64,000 nt of DNA from Rhodothermia bacterium. GTDB lineage: Bacteria; Bacteroidota; Rhodothermia; Balneolales; Balneolaceae. A program made the position numbers and the translations under genes. Positions 32,849-43,610 of this stretch are shown here, piece by piece; positions within the stretch are counted from its first letter, which is position 1, and every line of letters begins with the position of its first letter. The notes under the pieces are model-generated. The model had not been told where the DNA came from and searched no databases. It worked only from the letters and a program-made list of their open reading frames with translations. The stretch is from positions 434,001 through 498,000 of the forward strand of contig JAUICM010000004.1 in the NCBI GenBank assembly GCA_030427885.1, in the 5' to 3' direction.

Positions 32849-34129
32849 ATGAATTCCTCACAAAATATTGTCGAATCCGATCGTTTGTCAAAAGCTCACC
32901 TGCTTGAACAATTCAGGAAGATCCGGTCTTTTACTCATCAGATTACAGATCCCCTGGAGGTAGAGGATTTTGTGATTCAGCCCATGGAAAATGCCAGTCC
33001 GGCAAAGTGGCATCTGGCGCATACCAGCTGGTTCTTCGAGACTTTTGTACTTGGCAAGTTTCTGCCGGATTTTGAAAGCCTGCATCCTCAGTATGCGTAT
33101 TTTTTCAATTCCTATTATTTGCAGACAGGAGTTCCTTTTACCCGGGCTAAGAGGGGATTGCTTTCGCGCCCAACGGTAAAAGAAGTGTTTGAATATCGCG
33201 CTTATGTGAACGAGCAAATGGAGGCGTTCATTCAAAACACAGATGAGCATACCTGGAAGGAAGCTGCTTCTGTGGTGGAGATTGGAAACCATCATGAGCA
33301 ACAACATCAGGAACTGATCCTGACCGACCTGAAATATCTGTTTGCTCAGAATCCCTTATTACCGGAATACCTGAATGTAGAAGTTGAATACTCTGAAAAG
33401 ATAGCAGATCTGAATTGGGTGGCATTTGAACAAGGATTGGTAGAAGTGGGAAGCAAAGGAGATGAATTTACCTATGATAATGAGCACCCCCATCACCGAA
33501 CTTTTGTACAGGATTTCGAACTATCAGATCGCCTTATTACCAATGCCGAATATCTTGAATTCATGAAAGCCGGTGGATATGAACGATCGGAATACTGGCT
33601 GGATGAAGGATGGTCAACGGTTAAGAAAGAAGAATGGAAAGCACCTTTGTACTGGTTTGAGCGGGAAGGAAGTTGGTTCAATTATACCTTATCCGGTGCA
33701 AGACAGGTAAATCCAGCCGAGCCGGTTACCCATATCAGTTATTTTGAGGCTGATGCTTTTGCGCGATGGAAAGGGGTTCGGTTGCCAACAGAACAGGAAT
33801 GGGAATTTGCATCTCAGAATCTGGAGATCAAAGGGAATTTTGTGGAGGATCAGGCTTTTCATCCGGTGCCTTTGAAAGAAAAAGAAGCGGGTATCAAACA
33901 GATGTTTGGAGATGTATGGGAGTGGACCATGAGCAGCTATGCGCCATATCCCGGTTATAAGCCACTTCCCGGGGCATTGGGGGAGTACAATGGTAAATTC
34001 ATGGCTAATCAGTATGTATTAAGGGGAGGTTCCTGTGCTACATCAAATTCGCATATAAGAAGAACTTACCGGAACTTCTTTCCCTCTAATGCACGTTGGC
34101 AGTTTAGTGGATTAAGATTAGCCAGATAA
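32849..34129 (+). CDS. egtB: Ergothioneine biosynthesis sulfoxide synthase
   Basis: Non-heme iron enzyme that joins a thiol donor (cysteine or gamma-glutamylcysteine) to hercynine, 426 residues. The N-terminal DinB-like domain supplies the iron ligands (WHLAHTSWFFE and EIGNHHEQQHQEL), and the C-terminal half is the FGE-sulfatase fold, with FGDVWEWTMSSYAPYPGY and VLRGGSCAT as its signatures. It is followed by egtD after 10 bases, so both steps from histidine are encoded together. No egtC, egtA or egtE is in the window; the thiol donor and lyase therefore remain undecided. Start ATG 32849. Confidence 0.9.
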   Translation: MNSSQNIVESDRLSKAHLLEQFRKIRSFTHQITDPLEVEDFVIQPMENASPAKWHLAHTSWFFETFVLGKFLPDFESLHPQYAYFFNSYYLQTGVPFTRAKRGLLSRPTVKEVFEYRAYVNEQMEAFIQNTDEHTWKEAASVVEIGNHHEQQHQELILTDLKYLFAQNPLLPEYLNVEVEYSEKIADLNWVAFEQGLVEVGSKGDEFTYDNEHPHHRTFVQDFELSDRLITNAEYLEFMKAGGYERSEYWLDEGWSTVKKEEWKAPLYWFEREGSWFNYTLSGARQVNPAEPVTHISYFEADAFARWKGVRLPTEQEWEFASQNLEIKGNFVEDQAFHPVPLKEKEAGIKQMFGDVWEWTMSSYAPYPGYKPLPGALGEYNGKFMANQYVLRGGSCATSNSHIRRTYRNFFPSNARWQFSGLRLAR

Positions 34130-34139
34130 ATATTAATCA

Positions 34140-35087
34140 TTGACCGACCTGAATACAGATAAAAAGAGAGCGATGCTCACAGAAGTGTTAGAGGGATTAC
34201 GCTCGCGGCAAAAATTTCTACCCAGCAAGTATTTCTATGATAAAGAAGGTTCCAGGCTTTTTGATGAGATAACCCGTCTCGATGAATATTATCCTACGCG
34301 AACAGAGCGCTCGATCCTGGAATCCAATCTGGAGGATATCTCAGATCATCTTGGGGAGAAAATAATGCTTATTGAACCGGGAAGCGGGAGTAGTGAGAAG
34401 ACAAGGATACTGCTGGATGAATTGAGTTCTATTTGCTGTTATATGCCGATCGATATTTCCGGGGAGTATTTACAGAAAGTAGCTGTACAATTAAGGCGTG
34501 ATTATCCTGAAATCACTATCGAACCTGTTGTTGCAGATTATACCCATGCAATAGAATTACCCAAAATTCATAACTCAGCCAGAAAGATCGTTTTTTTTCC
34601 GGGATCAACCATTGGAAATTTTGAACCGGATACTGCAATGAGGTTTTTTAAGGTGATCCGGGGTCTGACAGGGAATGGGGGTGGTTTGCTGATCGGTGTG
34701 GACCTGAAAAAGGATCTTAATATTCTGCTGAATGCATATAATGATTCAAAAGGGATCACGGCAGCATTTAATAAAAATATGCTCACTCATATAAACCGTG
34801 AGATCGGGTCTGATTTCGAGCCCGGTTATTTTGATCACTCAGCGATATGGAATGAAGATAAAGGCAGGATCGAAATGCACCTGATCGCCAACCGATCTCA
34901 TACGATAACTGTAGAAGGAGAGAGTTTCACTATTGAGGAGAGTGAAAGCATTCACACTGAAAATTCCTATAAATACTCACTCTCTGATTTCAGTGATTTG
35001 GTGTCTCCATGGTTTGGTGTCAGAAAGGTGTGGACCGATCCAAAAAAATATTTCAGCCTCCAATATCTGAGTCCAAAGCCCCAATAG
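34140..35087 (+). CDS. egtD: L-histidine N-alpha-methyltransferase
   Basis: SAM-dependent enzyme that trimethylates histidine to hercynine, 315 residues. The family N-terminus LPSKYFYDKEGSRLFDEI, with LDEYYPTRTE, the SAM site IEPGSGSSEKTRILLD, and FFPGSTIGNFEP are all clear. It begins with TTG at 34140 (residues MTDLNTDKK); the next in-frame ATG at 34173 would also keep the core. Coupled to egtB, 10 bases upstream. It is followed by a 16-base perfect palindrome. Confidence 0.9.
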   Translation: MTDLNTDKKRAMLTEVLEGLRSRQKFLPSKYFYDKEGSRLFDEITRLDEYYPTRTERSILESNLEDISDHLGEKIMLIEPGSGSSEKTRILLDELSSICCYMPIDISGEYLQKVAVQLRRDYPEITIEPVVADYTHAIELPKIHNSARKIVFFPGSTIGNFEPDTAMRFFKVIRGLTGNGGGLLIGVDLKKDLNILLNAYNDSKGITAAFNKNMLTHINREIGSDFEPGYFDHSAIWNEDKGRIEMHLIANRSHTITVEGESFTIEESESIHTENSYKYSLSDFSDLVSPWFGVRKVWTDPKKYFSLQYLSPKPQ

Positions 35088-35198: not shown

Positions 35199-38100
35199 AT
35201 GAAAAACGCAGTACGGGCTTTTTTCGGGGTCCTTTTTGTTTTGATCATAACAGGTATCAATGTACAGGCGCAGGAAGTAACCGGCCAGGATACATTACAC
35301 AGAATTGATTACCAGTGGGAGTTTTACGACTTCACCGCTGGAACAGCTTTTTCAATTTCAGATACAGCAACATACGATGCAGATATTCGGGGCAGCAGTA
35401 ACGAAGGAGTGAATTTCGGGAAAGAATTCTCTGCTGCAGTATTGGATGATCGTATTATGCGGCTGAGTGAATCGGGGGATATAGATACGGTTAGTTCCGT
35501 TCCAAGCTATACCGGTTCTTCGCCGTGGGTAAGCACCAGTTGGGAAACCACCAATTATCAACCGATCACACCGGGTGAGCTTTGGGTGGTCTACACAAGG
35601 GAAGGATTGTATGTAGTGATAGAGATCGTTTCTCTGCCAGACGGTAACTTCGGAAACAGCCTGGTTTTCAAGTACAAATACATGAGTGAAGGAGGAACAA
35701 GCTTCCCAAACGCTGGTACTGTTGCAGATCAGGTTACAGGCTCAACTACGGTATCATCCGGAACCGGATTTGATTTTTCGAGAGAAGAAGTTGGTGATAA
35801 CGCGGATGCGGGTGATTATCAGTTGGATTTTGCTTTTGTAAGTAATGAGGGAGTCAATTTCGGAAATGAGGGAAGTAGTTCTTTATCGGCCACCGGAAGA
35901 AGATTCTTACTTCTTGGAACCGGAAATATTGATACGGTTTCAACAGTACCTGAAAGAACAGATTCAGATCCCTGGAAAGTGGTGTCATATGATGCTACCG
36001 GTTATCAGCCGATTTCAGTAGGTCAGCTTTGGGCGGTGTATACCCGTGAAGGTCATTATGCAGTTATGGAGATAACAGACCTTCCCGGAGGAGACTTCGG
36101 AAGCAGTTTTAGTTTCGATTATAAATATCAGCCAAACGGAACTAACAGTTTTGATGCAACAGAAACGGAAGAACCTTCAAGTCCAGAAATTCAGACAAGC
36201 GGGGTGGTAGTGGAAGAAGGCTTTACTTTCACAAATGTGAATGCATCTTCTAAAACAGCGGCAACCGCAACATATACCGTTACGGGACTCAATCTGGAAG
36301 GGGATATTGAACTCGAAGCAATTGCTCTTGAAGGAACATATCCCGGGTTTGATCTCTCTCTGAATGGGACCGTTTTTTCAGGTGATGTAACTATCTCTCA
36401 GAGTGATGCATCTGATAAACAGGTAACAGTGAGAGCAATTGTACCGGCTAACAACGGCAGAACGTACGAAGGTAAGATCGTTCACAGCACAACTAACGGA
36501 GACACTGTTGAAATCCCGGTATCAGTAACTGAGCTCTATGAAGTGGCTTCCATTACACTGGAGGGACCTTCCGTGGACTCAACTATTTTTGTAGGAGATT
36601 CTGTTTCGATCAACTGGACAGTGAGTAACCTTATCAATGAGTCGCTTACCATTGAATACAGCCTTGATGAGTTTAACTGGACAGAGCTGGATTCCAAAAG
36701 CAGCGGATTGGGTTCTTACACTTTTGATACTTCGGAATTACCAGCTGGTACTTATTATGTACGTATTTCTGCTGAAGAATTACCAACGCCAGTATCTTCA
36801 AATACCATTAGTATAAGCATTGAAAATGAGCCACAAGAGCAAAGTGAAGGTACCATCACCATAAGTAATGGAGCAGGCTTCGATTTTTCTACAGGTTCAT
36901 TAGGAGATAATGAAGACGAAACAGGGTATGAGCTCGACTTTGCATTTGTAAGCAATGAGGGTGTCAATTTCGGTAATGAAAGTAGCAGCTCTTTATCATC
37001 AACAGGAAGAAGGTTCTATTTGATGGGAACTGGTAAAGTCGATTCGGTTACCTCCGTTCCTGAACGCACAGACGCAGAGCCATGGAAAGTGGTTTCATAC
37101 GATGCTACCGGCTACCAGCCGATTTCAGTAGGTCAGCTTTGGGCAGTGTATACCCGGGAAGGTGATTATGCAGTAATGGAAATCACAGACCTTCCGGGTG
37201 GAAATTTTGGGAGTTCGTTTACTTTCAAGTATAAGTATCAACCGAATGGAACCCGCTTCTTCGATGGTACAGAAGTTGAGGAGGAAGAACCGGATCCGGT
37301 ATATACCTTATCTGTACTTTCAGGGAATAACCAGACGGTAGGTCTGGAAAAGATCACACCAGAGTCATTGTTTGTAAAGCTGGTGGATCAGGACGACCTC
37401 GCCGTTACAGGGGAAGAAGTTCAATTTGAATTTACTCAGGTGCCTTCCGGGGCTATGAATTACGGCGGTATCACCAACGGACAAACTACTAATGTAAATG
37501 GTGAAGTTGGTACTTCCGTAAAAGTCGGAGATGTTAAAGGAGAGTATATCGTGAAAGCGAGTCTGGTCTCAGACACCACTAAAAAAGTATTCTTCACTAT
37601 TAATGGGTTCACGCTGAAACCACCGGCAGCACAATTGTCAGCAGGTGCAGGGTTCAATAAATTATACCTCATTGCTGCGGACAGCGCGGTGTCTTATAAT
37701 ATATATCGTTCGGTTGGGGATGATAATCCAGCCTCATCCACCTTCCTGGATTCAACCACATCACTTACCTACTCCGATTATGATGTAACAAGCGGACAAA
37801 CCTATTTCTACTGGCTGAAGTCTGTTGATGCTGATGGTAATGAGAGTGAGACATCCTATGGTCCTTTAACCGGAACACCAACCGACCCGCCAGCTCAGAT
37901 CCTTGGTGAGGCAACTATCGGACTAAATGAAGGATTTGAATTTTCCACCGATTCGGTAGGCGGAAAAGAAGACGCCCCTGGATACATAGTGGATCTGGTT
38001 TATGTAACCAATGAAGGAACCAATTTTGGGAATGAGGGAAGTACTTCGCTGAACTCAACCGGAAGACGATTTAAACTGCTGGGTGAAGGTTCCATCGATA

Positions 38101-41100
38101 CTGTGACTTCTGTTCCGCAACGAACGGATGCTTCACCATGGATCACGGTCACCTGGGACTGGCCGGATGGGACACAAGGAGCTCCTATATCTGTAGGTCA
38201 GCTTTGGGGAGTGTTTACCAGAGAAGGTCACTACGGGGTGATGGAGATCACACATGTGAACAGTGGTTCAAATGAATTCACTTTCAAATATAAATATCAG
38301 CCAAGCGGATCCCGCTTCTTCGAAGAAACAGAATCAGAAGAACCTGAGCCTGTGTACTCTCTCTCAATTGTAAGTGGAAACAACCAGATTGTAAATGAGG
38401 GAAGTGTATCTCCTGAGTTGATGGTTGCGAAAGTAACCGACGATTCAAGCAACGCAGTTAGTGGACAGAATGTACTGTTCGAATTTGTTAGCGTTCCTGA
38501 TAGTGCAACCGGGTATGGTGGACTGGAAGGAGCCTTGCTAACAGGTGCTGATGGATTGGCAAAGACTACGGCGAAAGTGGGTAACAAACCAGGCGATTAT
38601 GTGTTGAAAGCCAGCCTGGTGTCAGATACCACCAAGAAAGTGTTTTTCACGCTCACTGTAGAAGTGGATACGGTGTATTCACTGGCGATCTATAACGGTA
38701 ACAACCAAAGTGTAGAAGTAAATACAACCACTATCGACTTACTCCAGGCTAAAGTAACGGATCAGTTCGGTAACCCTATATCAGGGCAGGAACTGAAGTT
38801 TGAGTTCGTAACCGTGCCAGACAGCGCTACTGGTTTTGGAGATGTGGTCACAGGTATTATTACAAACACGAACGGTACTGCTGGTATCAATGCAAAAGTG
38901 GGTGACAGACCCGGAACCTATGTGTTGAAAGCCTCATTGGTATCAGACACAACTAAGTCGGTTACATTTACGATCAATGCTACAGAACCGGCTGAACAAA
39001 GTGAAGGTACTATAACCATAAGCAATGGCGAAGGGTTTGATTTCTCAACCGGTTCGCTGGGTGACAATGAAGACGAAACCGGATACATGCTGGACTTCGC
39101 CTTCGTCAACAATGAAGGAGTGAACTTTGGAAATGAGGGAAGCAATAGTATCACAGAGACCGGAAGACGATTCCTGCTGCTAGGTACCGGAAAAGTGGAC
39201 TCGGTTTCTTCTGTTCCGGAAAGGTCAGATGCTACTCCATGGATCCATACTTCTTATCATGGAACCGGTACAAACGGACTGCCGATCTCGGTTGGACAAC
39301 TTTGGGCGGTATACACCCGTGAAGGGCATTATGCAGTGATGGAGATCACAGATCTGCCAGGCGGAGGGTTCGGCAGCTCATTTTCATTCAAATACAAATA
39401 TCAGCCAAACGGTACGAGAAATTTTGATGCGACTGAAGTAGAAGAACCGGAGCCAGAACCTGAATACAGTCTTTCTATCGTAAGTGGCAACAACCAGACC
39501 GTTGATAAGAGTGGTATCACTCCGGAATTGATGGTCGCGAAAGTGACAGACGATTCAAGTAATGCGGTAAGTGGGCAAAGTGTTCTGTTTGAATTTGTGA
39601 CCGTTCCGGATGGAGCCTCAGGCTATGGCGGATTGGAAGGAGCACTTCTGACTGGTGCTGATGGATTGGCAAAGACTACGGCGAAAGTAGGTGACAAACC
39701 CGGCGACTATGTGCTGAAAGCCAGCCTTGTTTCGGATACCACTAAGAAAGTATTCTTTACCCTTACGGTAGAGCCAAAACTTCCGAATTCACTGATAGTG
39801 ATCAGCGGGAATAACCAATCAGCACTACCAGGTGATACTTTAAATCAATTTGAAGTTAAGGTACTCGATGATGCCGGCAACGGACTCGAAAATATCGAGG
39901 TGGTTTTTGAAGTGATCGTTAAACCTGAGAATGCGAATAACGACGGATTGTTTAGTATGGATGGAATTACCATACCTAATGTTCATTCAGGCACAGATGG
40001 TATTGCCAAAATGAAGTATAGATTGGGGGATAAACCAGGTGATTACACAGTTAAAGCGTACCTCGCAGATTATGCAGAAGTAGATTCAGTCATATTCAGT
40101 GCGAAAGCAAATAAACTACCCGCTCCTCGAAATTTTGTGGCAACAGGGGCTCCGGCTTCTGTGAAACTGAGCTGGGATTCTGTTCAGGGTGCGGCGAGTT
40201 ATAATCTGTACCGCTCTCAGGGGGATGACAATCCAGCCACAGCATCGTTGCTTAGCAATGTGGCAAGTCACAACTATACCGACAGTCAGGTTGGTATTGA
40301 TACAGTGTATTATTACTGGATCAAATCCGTAGATGCTTTTGGAAACGAAGGGGAGTTTTCGGCTGGTCCGGTTGATGCGATCCCGACGGAGATTCCCGAG
40401 CCAACTCCGGGTGAAGCAACGATCGTAGCACGAAGTGGGAGTGGATTTTCAAAAGACTGGGATTACTTCGACTTCTCTAAAGGATATGCCTCAACGGTAG
40501 CCGATAGCGGCGATTATCTGGCTGATATCAGAGGTACTTCGAATGAGGGTGTGAATTTTGGAAACGAAAAAGCCACACAGATCGAAGGTCGCAGAGTGAT
40601 CTACCTCGAAACAGGAAAACTCGAAGATGTTAAAAGCATACCGGAATGGACTAACGAAGCTCCATGGATCAATGTGACCTGGGACTGGCCCAACGGAACC
40701 AGTGGTCAGCCGGTAGCAGTAGGTCAGCTTTGGGGAGTGTACACCCGCGAAGGAAACTATGCCGTCATGGAAATTACGGACGTTCCTGAGGCGTTCGGCG
40801 ATTCACTTTCTTTCCGCTTCAAATACCAGGAAGGGGGAAGTCCAATCTTCGAAGGAGAAGTGGGCGAAGAACCCGTACCGGATTCACTTGCGATAGTGTC
40901 AGGTGATCAACAAAAAGGGGTTCCCGGTTCTACACTAGCAACACCACTTAAAGTTCAGCTCTTCGACAGTTCTGGTATGGCTATGAAAGGTGTAACCATC
41001 CATTTTGAGATCACAAGTACTCCGGACGGATCAACAGGGGCGGCAATAAGTGCTGCATCGGTGATAAGTTCTGATTCAGGGTATGCGTCTGTATCGCTCA

Positions 41101-43610
41101 CATTAGGTGACCTCGAAGGAGATTATCTGGTGAATGCTTTGGTTGAAGGAGTGGATACCGTAAGCTTTACAGCCACTTCTGAACAGCTTCCTCCACCGGA
41201 TGCAGTTACTATGGTTGAGATCAGAGATGGATTCCAGGATAGTACGCTGTCTCCACTCTGGACGATGAGTAAAAGCGAGACCTTCCTGCGATATAGGGTG
41301 TATATGAGTATTGATGGAGAGAACTACAGCCTGATTGATTCAACCCGCAGAGATGGATTTGCAGTTGATACAGCACGATCTATCTCAAGCCTGACTCCTC
41401 TGGAAGAGTACTACTTCAAAGTCTCGGTAGTGAATGAGGATTTGCAGGAAAGCGAGCTTTCAAATGCACTTTCTGCTCTTGTTAAGCCAAGGCCAGAACA
41501 ACCTCAGAATGTAACAGCACTGGCTGGTGACGGTGCTGTTCAACTAAGCTGGACTGCAAACGACACTGCCTATTTCGATTACTATCTGATCTATTCAGGT
41601 CTGGATGGAAACGAGATCACACCGAAGGATACTTTGTGGGGTGCGAATAATACTTCCATACAAATAGATGGACTTACCAATGATGAAACCTATCAGTTCT
41701 ATGTGCTGGCAGTGAACGACTTTGGTAAAGAATCGGACTGGCCTGATAAAGTAACGGCAACTCCGGTATCAGCATATGAGGAAGAAGAATTCACTATCCC
41801 GGTGCTTATAAACGGTACGTTCACCTTTGCTGATGTAGATAATGATCGCGACCTGGATCTGCTGATAACAGGTCAGAAAGACATCAGCTCTGATCCGGAG
41901 GCTTATCTTCTGATCAATGATGGAAGTGGCGACTTCAGCGACTCAGGGGAGGAGATCATTGGAGTGGTAAACAGTACGGTGTACTGGTATGATGTGGATC
42001 AGAATGGATATACGGATATTGTTATAACCGGTGAAAGTATCTCTGGCTCCATCACAAAAGTATATCTGAACGAAGAAGGTTCATTTACAGATGCCGGGTT
42101 CACACTTCCGGGTCTGGGTGATGGATTCATATCTCCGGCCGATTACGACAGCGACGGTGACCTCGACTTCCTGATCGCAGGTGATTCCGGTGCCGGACTG
42201 CAAACCATTCTTATTAAGAACAATAAATCCGCTGGTCTCGAGCCTGTTGATACTCCGTTCATTGGAGTGAAGAATGCAGCAGCTTCGTGGGGCGATTACA
42301 ACGCCGATGGCCGAAAGGATCTGTTCCTGACTGGTGAAGACGAGAATGGTGATGTAGTCTCAAAACTCTATATCAATAAGGGATCTGATAATTTTAGTGA
42401 ACAATCAACCATTCTTCCTGGTGTAGTGTATGGAGCGGTTTCATGGTTGGATTTCAATCTGGACCGGCGCCAGGATCTGATCCTTGTCGGATATACAAGT
42501 ACGGCCCTGAACGAACTCTTCATTGGGATCTACACTAATACCACTTCCGGAATGGTAGCATTCTATACAACAACCATTCCGTTAGGCGCTGCTAAAGAGA
42601 TGGCAGATGCTCCTCTGTCGATAGCAGATGAAGGTGAGATCGCTGATAAGCATAACACTGAGAACATTCCAGATGCAGCATTGCGACAAAAAGTTAAAAC
42701 TACCGTTTCAGGAGTGCTTAAAGGTCGGGTTACCGTAGGTGATTACGACAACGATGGTGATCCCGATGCCCTGGTTAGTGCCAAAGGTGTGGCTTCGATC
42801 CTTAAAAACAATAAAGGACAGGTAGCCGAGGAGAAGCTGGACGTGGGTGTAGACGGAACCGTGGTTTGGGCGGATTATGATGGCGATGGTGACCTCGATA
42901 TCGTAGCGACCGGAACAGCCGAAGACGGTAGTTCAAAATCGAAAGTGTTCTCAAATAACACCTCGTTCAAGAATACTCCGCCAACTGTTCCAATGAATCC
43001 GGTTTCAGAGGTTGTAGCTGATACCGTTAAACTGAGCTGGGATCATTCCACAGATGAACAAACTCCGTTCCTCTCCCTGACCTACAATGTGCGGATCGGT
43101 AGCGCGAAAGGAGCTTCTGATGTGCTTTCTGCCAACGCTGATCTGACCACAGGTAAACTCAAGATCCAGGCCGATGGTAATACCGGCTATGATACCAGTC
43201 TTAAACTTCAGGGACTGGCTAATGGAACCTACTACTGGCAGGTACAGGCAGTGGACAACGGATTCCTCGCCTCAAAGTTTACTAATGAGGGTGAGTTTAC
43301 TGTTACAACCAGTATCATAAGCAATGAAGAAATTGCTGAAATACCTGCAGAAGTAGAGCTGATGCAGAACTATCCGAATCCGTTCAACCCGACCACGCAG
43401 ATCGAGTTTGCGGTTCCGAAAGATGCAGAAGTAAAACTTCAGGTATATGACATCACCGGTCGATTGGTAGGAACACTGGTGGAAGGCCGCAAAACCGCGG
43501 GTCGACATTCTGTTCGCTTCGATGCGCGCAGTCTGGCCAGTGGATTGTATCTGTACCGCATCAAGATCGGAAGCGAAGTACTGATCAGAAAAATGACCCT
43601 GATCAAATAG
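35199..43610 (+). CDS. Giant secreted modular protein with T9SS sorting domain
   Basis: This protein has 2803 residues with an N-terminal signal peptide (about 1-25). Six copies of an approximately 130-residue domain I do not recognise lie at about 36-172, 188-322, 558-689, 911-1042, 1276-1411 and 1748-1883. They share the core NEGVNFGNE and GQLWAVYTREGHYAVMEI. Between them are Ig/Big_1-like repeats (SGNNQ... VKASLVSDTTKKVFF; about six) and FN3-like modules. Residues about 2200-2590 have seven FG-GAP/VCBS motifs of the DYDSDGDLD type, likely calcium-binding. The last about 90 residues are a type A sorting domain (NYPNPFNPTTQIEF, GLYLYRI), so it is probably exported by T9SS and attached to the surface. 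It may be an adhesin or matrix component; the ligand is unknown. Confidence 0.88.
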   Translation: MKNAVRAFFGVLFVLIITGINVQAQEVTGQDTLHRIDYQWEFYDFTAGTAFSISDTATYDADIRGSSNEGVNFGKEFSAAVLDDRIMRLSESGDIDTVSSVPSYTGSSPWVSTSWETTNYQPITPGELWVVYTREGLYVVIEIVSLPDGNFGNSLVFKYKYMSEGGTSFPNAGTVADQVTGSTTVSSGTGFDFSREEVGDNADAGDYQLDFAFVSNEGVNFGNEGSSSLSATGRRFLLLGTGNIDTVSTVPERTDSDPWKVVSYDATGYQPISVGQLWAVYTREGHYAVMEITDLPGGDFGSSFSFDYKYQPNGTNSFDATETEEPSSPEIQTSGVVVEEGFTFTNVNASSKTAATATYTVTGLNLEGDIELEAIALEGTYPGFDLSLNGTVFSGDVTISQSDASDKQVTVRAIVPANNGRTYEGKIVHSTTNGDTVEIPVSVTELYEVASITLEGPSVDSTIFVGDSVSINWTVSNLINESLTIEYSLDEFNWTELDSKSSGLGSYTFDTSELPAGTYYVRISAEELPTPVSSNTISISIENEPQEQSEGTITISNGAGFDFSTGSLGDNEDETGYELDFAFVSNEGVNFGNESSSSLSSTGRRFYLMGTGKVDSVTSVPERTDAEPWKVVSYDATGYQPISVGQLWAVYTREGDYAVMEITDLPGGNFGSSFTFKYKYQPNGTRFFDGTEVEEEEPDPVYTLSVLSGNNQTVGLEKITPESLFVKLVDQDDLAVTGEEVQFEFTQVPSGAMNYGGITNGQTTNVNGEVGTSVKVGDVKGEYIVKASLVSDTTKKVFFTINGFTLKPPAAQLSAGAGFNKLYLIAADSAVSYNIYRSVGDDNPASSTFLDSTTSLTYSDYDVTSGQTYFYWLKSVDADGNESETSYGPLTGTPTDPPAQILGEATIGLNEGFEFSTDSVGGKEDAPGYIVDLVYVTNEGTNFGNEGSTSLNSTGRRFKLLGEGSIDTVTSVPQRTDASPWITVTWDWPDGTQGAPISVGQLWGVFTREGHYGVMEITHVNSGSNEFTFKYKYQPSGSRFFEETESEEPEPVYSLSIVSGNNQIVNEGSVSPELMVAKVTDDSSNAVSGQNVLFEFVSVPDSATGYGGLEGALLTGADGLAKTTAKVGNKPGDYVLKASLVSDTTKKVFFTLTVEVDTVYSLAIYNGNNQSVEVNTTTIDLLQAKVTDQFGNPISGQELKFEFVTVPDSATGFGDVVTGIITNTNGTAGINAKVGDRPGTYVLKASLVSDTTKSVTFTINATEPAEQSEGTITISNGEGFDFSTGSLGDNEDETGYMLDFAFVNNEGVNFGNEGSNSITETGRRFLLLGTGKVDSVSSVPERSDATPWIHTSYHGTGTNGLPISVGQLWAVYTREGHYAVMEITDLPGGGFGSSFSFKYKYQPNGTRNFDATEVEEPEPEPEYSLSIVSGNNQTVDKSGITPELMVAKVTDDSSNAVSGQSVLFEFVTVPDGASGYGGLEGALLTGADGLAKTTAKVGDKPGDYVLKASLVSDTTKKVFFTLTVEPKLPNSLIVISGNNQSALPGDTLNQFEVKVLDDAGNGLENIEVVFEVIVKPENANNDGLFSMDGITIPNVHSGTDGIAKMKYRLGDKPGDYTVKAYLADYAEVDSVIFSAKANKLPAPRNFVATGAPASVKLSWDSVQGAASYNLYRSQGDDNPATASLLSNVASHNYTDSQVGIDTVYYYWIKSVDAFGNEGEFSAGPVDAIPTEIPEPTPGEATIVARSGSGFSKDWDYFDFSKGYASTVADSGDYLADIRGTSNEGVNFGNEKATQIEGRRVIYLETGKLEDVKSIPEWTNEAPWINVTWDWPNGTSGQPVAVGQLWGVYTREGNYAVMEITDVPEAFGDSLSFRFKYQEGGSPIFEGEVGEEPVPDSLAIVSGDQQKGVPGSTLATPLKVQLFDSSGMAMKGVTIHFEITSTPDGSTGAAISAASVISSDSGYASVSLTLGDLEGDYLVNALVEGVDTVSFTATSEQLPPPDAVTMVEIRDGFQDSTLSPLWTMSKSETFLRYRVYMSIDGENYSLIDSTRRDGFAVDTARSISSLTPLEEYYFKVSVVNEDLQESELSNALSALVKPRPEQPQNVTALAGDGAVQLSWTANDTAYFDYYLIYSGLDGNEITPKDTLWGANNTSIQIDGLTNDETYQFYVLAVNDFGKESDWPDKVTATPVSAYEEEEFTIPVLINGTFTFADVDNDRDLDLLITGQKDISSDPEAYLLINDGSGDFSDSGEEIIGVVNSTVYWYDVDQNGYTDIVITGESISGSITKVYLNEEGSFTDAGFTLPGLGDGFISPADYDSDGDLDFLIAGDSGAGLQTILIKNNKSAGLEPVDTPFIGVKNAAASWGDYNADGRKDLFLTGEDENGDVVSKLYINKGSDNFSEQSTILPGVVYGAVSWLDFNLDRRQDLILVGYTSTALNELFIGIYTNTTSGMVAFYTTTIPLGAAKEMADAPLSIADEGEIADKHNTENIPDAALRQKVKTTVSGVLKGRVTVGDYDNDGDPDALVSAKGVASILKNNKGQVAEEKLDVGVDGTVVWADYDGDGDLDIVATGTAEDGSSKSKVFSNNTSFKNTPPTVPMNPVSEVVADTVKLSWDHSTDEQTPFLSLTYNVRIGSAKGASDVLSANADLTTGKLKIQADGNTGYDTSLKLQGLANGTYYWQVQAVDNGFLASKFTNEGEFTVTTSIISNEEIAEIPAEVELMQNYPNPFNPTTQIEFAVPKDAEVKLQVYDITGRLVGTLVEGRKTAGRHSVRFDARSLASGLYLYRIKIGSEVLIRKMTLIK

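Follow-up and report, generated by a model that had tools for sequence, protein, structure and literature searches.

A predicted HmuY-like fold for the six-copy repeat of a giant, putatively T9SS-exported protein of the Balneolaceae

The window, by which we mean the whole 64,000-nucleotide stretch of Balneolaceae DNA that was analysed, carries at 35199-43610 an open frame encoding a protein of 2,803 amino acids. The locus raises the question of what the domain repeated six times in this protein is, and what such repeats might do. The first-pass annotation had described a giant T9SS protein with six copies of an unrecognised domain, and both parts of this description were borne out. The motifs NEG[VT]NFG and LW.V[YF]TREG occur six times each in the protein and are always paired. 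The copies delimited around them (amino acids 32-171, 183-322, 552-692, 903-1046, 1271-1413 and 1740-1884) are about 140 residues long, share 39-82% pairwise identity and have 36 invariant columns, a likeness far above chance. The repeat has six matches across the whole window genome, all of them within the giant gene. Neither Pfam nor NCBIfam assigns anything to it, even at E 10, whether the whole protein or single copies are searched. The features of the gene are listed below.

35199-43610, + strand: gene for the 2,803-aa putative T9SS cargo with six repeats (open frame; Pfam/NCBIfam architecture)
35199-35273, + strand: putative Sec-type signal sequence at the N-terminus, MKNAVRAFFGVLFVLIITGINVQAQ (read from the translation)
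35292-35711, + strand: HmuY-like domain copy 1, N-terminal subtype (alignment, tree)
35745-36164, + strand: HmuY-like domain copy 2, middle subtype (alignment, tree)
36852-37274, + strand: HmuY-like domain copy 3, middle subtype, the copy modelled with AlphaFold2 (alignment, model, structure comparison)
37299-37604, + strand: Big_1 Ig-like spacer (Pfam Big_1; limits by eye)
37905-38336, + strand: HmuY-like domain copy 4, middle subtype (alignment, tree)
38355-38981, + strand: two Big_1 Ig-like spacers (Pfam Big_1; limits by eye)
39009-39437, + strand: HmuY-like domain copy 5, middle subtype (alignment, tree)
39462-40113, + strand: two Big_1 Ig-like spacers (Pfam Big_1; limits by eye)
40416-40850, + strand: HmuY-like domain copy 6, C-terminal subtype (alignment, tree)
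40881-41166, + strand: Big_1 Ig-like spacer (Pfam Big_1; limits by eye)
41499-41741, + strand: fibronectin type III domain, the top-scoring among several (Pfam fn3)
41802-42824, + strand: FG-GAP repeats of beta-propeller type (Pfam FG-GAP_3, FG-GAP; outer limits approximate)
43371-43595, + strand: T9SS type A C-terminal sorting domain (PF18962, E 8e-15; TIGR04183, E 4e-9)

Pfam finds Big_1 in six stretches of the protein, the spacer limits being drawn by eye. The sorting domain scores 36.3 bits with TIGR04183 against an NCBIfam cut-off of 23. Export of the protein through the T9SS is expected because the same genome encodes the machinery protein SprA (1499.6 bits) and has 77 sorting-domain matches.

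The first clue to the identity of the repeat came from the three weakest genome matches of the six-copy profile, which are 200-aa proteins assigned to HmuY by Pfam. Thirteen weak genome matches, drawn from the six-copy and the 37-row profiles together, were tested: ten lie above the Pfam HmuY cut-off, two match the family below it and one has no match. In a profile-profile comparison (hhalign) with 15 proteins on the HmuY side, repeat and HmuY align over 129 colinear columns with a probability of 93.8% (E 1.8e-7), whereas the controls, made with an unrelated repeat of the same 2,803-aa protein, score 0.2% and 1.3%. The two families have in common the motifs T-x-x-G-x-Y-A near the middle and F-x-Y-x-x-Q-x-x-G at the end. 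When the 37-row profile was searched against PDB sequences the top entries were 8b6a (E 0.011) and 6eu8 (E 0.026), both of the HmuY family and both with marginal E-values. For the bridging HmuY proteins the E-value is 3.8e-26 with 8b6a and 3.1e-12 with P. gingivalis HmuY. Direct hmmscan of the repeat against Pfam HmuY (PF14064) gave nothing significant, the lowest E-value of the 37 members being 0.015, and no window copy reaches the curated cut-off. The assignment of homology is founded on profile-profile comparison.

Several other candidates were discarded. Leukocidin-type PDB matches of the six-copy profile (E 0.11-0.12) are attributed to chance, as they disappear with the 37-row profile, for which HmuY ranks first. 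CBM46 (E 0.045-0.065), PKD (E 0.032) and the xyloglucanase 2cn2 (E 0.064) were not significant and were set aside. The searches also yielded a 196-aa lipoprotein-like frame that matches the repeat profile without a Pfam HmuY match (L087:1087-1674), which could be a form intermediate to HmuY and the repeat. Frames of 357-394 aa with two Pfam HmuY matches were found in eight Balneolaceae genomes (G127, G046, G159, G171, G187, G293, G065 and G077), which suggests tandem two-domain HmuY proteins.

Structure prediction of one copy, proposed by the first-pass annotation, was carried out on copy 3. The AlphaFold2 model (mean pLDDT 95.3, pTM 0.90) has the HmuY fold. In Foldseek, no PDB structure except the two chains of 8b6a (BfrB, also called HmuY-Bf2) falls below 1e-3, and the next ranks are mostly PinO, Tfo, BVU_2192, P. 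gingivalis HmuY and BF2707. The Foldseek TM-scores are modest (0.44-0.60), probably due to the repeat being some 40 residues shorter than HmuY. VIA-align ranks nine entries at Z 6.7-10.6 before a drop to 3.5. Eight of them are HmuY-family or HmuY-like structures (8b6a, 3h8t, 6ewm, 6r2h, 4gbs, 3u22, 6eu8 and 8b61; Z 6.7-9.7 over 111-122 residues). The ninth, which has the highest score (Z 10.6 over 119 residues), is the DUF4466 protein PARMER_03218 (4ei0), likened to the repeat by structure alone. A two-domain model of copies 1 and 2 has a similar strand pattern, but its alignment of 8 rows was too shallow (pLDDT 70) to show the packing of adjacent copies. As profile-profile match, weak cross-genome matches and structure comparison agree, the repeat, judged from profiles and model, is an HmuY fold and most simply a remote, shortened HmuY homologue. 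The claim that it might be a new surface ligand-binding fold is thus not upheld: the fold is already known, and what is new is the variant and where it occurs. The same annotation had named a profile search leading to a known domain as what would overturn its reading. Direct Pfam search leads nowhere, but profile-profile and structure comparison lead to the HmuY superfamily.

The family PF14064, which includes P. gingivalis HmuY, T. forsythia Tfo, PinO and Bvu, shares with the repeat its fold and colinear motifs and differs from it in size and setting. The repeat has about 135-140 residues against about 180, and six copies sit inside a T9SS giant while HmuY is a lone outer-membrane lipoprotein beside an HmuR-type TonB receptor. 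Also missing from the repeat are the arm that carries H134 and the residues that bind the iron. In the P. gingivalis protein the haem iron is held by H134 and H166, and homologues use methionines (PMC8911585, PMC12106395). The VP motif is separated from the Trp by 49 residues in HmuY and by 7 in the repeat, and H134 falls in the stretch of ~42 residues absent from the latter. H166 lies five residues past this Trp, which is matched in the alignment by invariant W78; the counterpart of H166, repeat position 83, is occupied by Tyr or Trp in each of the 37 domains. Iron-ligand pairs of any of the types His/His, His/Met or Met/Met are absent from the H134/H166 positions. Histidine is missing altogether from copies 3 and 6, and cysteine from every copy. 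Haem coordination in the manner of HmuY is therefore unlikely, given the missing H134 arm, the Tyr or Trp in place of H166 and the two copies devoid of histidine. A haem-dead precedent with the HmuY fold is BfrC (HmuY-Bf3; 8b61, VIA-align Z 6.7), for which binding of neither haem nor protoporphyrin was reported (PMC12106395). BfrC is a lone lipoprotein, whereas the repeat is part of a T9SS giant. No description of HmuY-like domains in T9SS giants was found in the open literature searched.

The copies were proposed to fall into two subtypes, one formed by copies 1 and 6 and the other by copies 2-5. In a maximum-likelihood tree of 37 domains the second grouping stands, copies 2-5 belonging to a larger group with support 91/88. 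Copies 1 and 6 fall in two separate clades of the best tree (95/90 and 96/92, respectively); a test of the two as one clade gave p-AU 0.235, which speaks neither for nor against it. Other Balneolaceae proteins have members of each clade at corresponding positions. The subtypes hence predate this gene, in agreement with the suggestion that the domain family is older than the gene. Selection on the protein, proposed from the comparison of copies 3 and 5, was also confirmed. These copies are 82% identical in protein sequence, with pS 0.92 and pN 0.13, and use the same codon at 37 of 113 shared degenerate residues, 42.6 being expected at random. Their synonymous sites are saturated and the protein is under strong purifying selection; it has therefore long been held by selection. 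Active recoding of the two copies to differ was rejected, as codon sharing is not significantly under the random level (z -1.1).

Among 394 genomes sampled from the phylum, strong matches to the repeat were found in eight Balneolaceae genomes, that of the window included, and in one other. A contig scan added Imperialibacter, a Bacteroidia bin, Ignavibacteriaceae, several Neomarinimicrobiota (Fidelibacterota) and one contig labelled Gammaproteobacteria. The domain is spread over several FCB phyla. The relatives carry one to six copies. Where complete relatives were scanned, the sorting tail occurs alongside FG-GAP, fn3, Big_1, CarboxypepD_reg or dockerin-type domains. Relatives with the tail belong to the Balneolaceae, Ignavibacteria and Neomarinimicrobiota, and the domain is also present in a Cytophagales giant. 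The Imperialibacter and Bacteroidia giants extend past the sequence examined, their C-terminal tails being outside its scope.

We favour, with a probability of roughly 60%, the reading of the repeat as a haem-dead HmuY-fold module of T9SS giants that was multiplied to provide binding heads for a non-haem ligand. Fold, homology, loss of the haem site, purifying selection and export signals are results of computation; surface location and binding would follow from the architecture. The giant would pass through the T9SS to the outside and then either stay attached to the surface or be released from it, with the copies acting as repeated heads set apart by Ig-like and fn3 spacers. The conserved N-E-G-x-N-F-G-x-E stretch, together with W78, P90, W97 and Y106, might recognise one common ligand, possibly a surface glycan or protein, other than haem coordinated through iron as in HmuY. 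A larger number of heads would increase avidity, as in other multidomain adhesins. Annotation pipelines leave this domain blank in giant exported proteins from several phyla; the analysis gives it a fold and an evolutionary origin, and sets absence of haem binding as a null that can be tested. The HmuY fold, studied so far in haem-related lipoproteins, is seen here in another context, which has implications for the way surface-binding modules are assembled in T9SS bacteria and for the question of whether HmuY was originally a haem protein.

The main rival is that the copies are passive stalk modules, forming a rigid, ligand-free spacer in which residues are conserved for folding only; we consider it unlikely. 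The repeats do alternate with Big_1 and fn3 modules, which are typical of stalks, the invariant residues include Gly, Trp and aromatic positions of core type, and purifying selection on the copies could reflect folding alone. Such a role is harder to reconcile with the polar invariant residues D29, N35, E36 and E43 and with subtype-specific conservation at fixed positions across species. It also makes little sense for the smallest relatives (L047 and L015, below 390 aa), which hold little beyond a single copy of the domain and the sorting tail, their sole Pfam domain over cut-off.

More improbable is a six-headed porphyrin trap, in which the copies would hold haem or protoporphyrin by contacts other than iron coordination and feed a TonB receptor. 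Its model is BfrB, the best match of the repeat in the PDB by Foldseek and by sequence profile. In this lone lipoprotein, heme and protoporphyrin are bound with no coordination of the iron, and the pocket loops are shorter (PMC12106395); the repeat likewise has short pocket loops and no iron ligands. The near invariance of Y100, Y106 and Y127 in the repeat also fits a porphyrin site. However, mutations that lower binding by BfrB include Y89, M144 and Y165 (PMC12106395), and none of these residues is kept. Y89, which with Y165 serves porphyrin binding, corresponds to a gap in 37 of 37 members, M144 is replaced by Trp or Tyr, and Y165 aligns to Gly in 31 of 37 members, otherwise to Tyr. A TonB receptor was not found among the nine neighbouring genes scanned. 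The window genome has elsewhere (G000 contig C5, L098:5413-8334) a 775-aa TonB-dependent receptor directly before an ordinary 198-aa HmuY lipoprotein, so that haem uptake of the usual kind would need no giant. An unrelated beta fold that came to resemble HmuY through convergence would account for the silence of direct Pfam searches and for the modest TM-scores. This explanation is scarcely credible in view of the full-length colinear profile match with clean controls, weak cross-genome matches that are almost all HmuY, the two motifs common to both families and nearest structures nearly all of the HmuY family.

A broader extension of the ligand-binding reading, possible but doubtful, is that HmuY-fold domains left haem scavenging and became widespread T9SS ligand-binding repeats throughout the FCB group. 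A new specificity would reside in the NEGxNFGxE face, and control by a dedicated two-component system would be possible in some lineages.

The genes around the giant gene comprise an ergothioneine-type pair upstream and an acyltransferase, a phosphofructokinase and a sulfate permease downstream. The upstream pair (window 32849-35087), which directly precedes the giant gene, codes for an FGE-sulfatase/DinB protein followed by a histidine-specific methyltransferase and looks like an EgtB-EgtD ergothioneine pair. No partner gene is conserved next to the giant gene of the window: these neighbours were not found beside the relatives and therefore give no functional clue. In six Balneolaceae loci (L037, L038, L039, L040, L041 and L043) the giant is flanked by most or all of one gene set: a histidine kinase, a LuxR-type response regulator, an OmpA/PD40 protein, SecD and SecF. 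The kinase of L037 carries Reg_prop/Y_Y_Y domains. The giants of Imperialibacter and of one Neomarinimicrobiota bin (L044:4916-7598; L051:3802-6261) likewise have a kinase and a related response regulator next to them. Regulation of the giant by a two-component system is a lead. In the window genome SecD-SecF and a response regulator lie on a contig without the giant (G000:C4:360171-364360). Another giant, of at least 3,572 aa (L045:5691-16406), combines three copies of the domain with a 5'-nucleotidase C-terminal domain, an enzyme-linked architecture.
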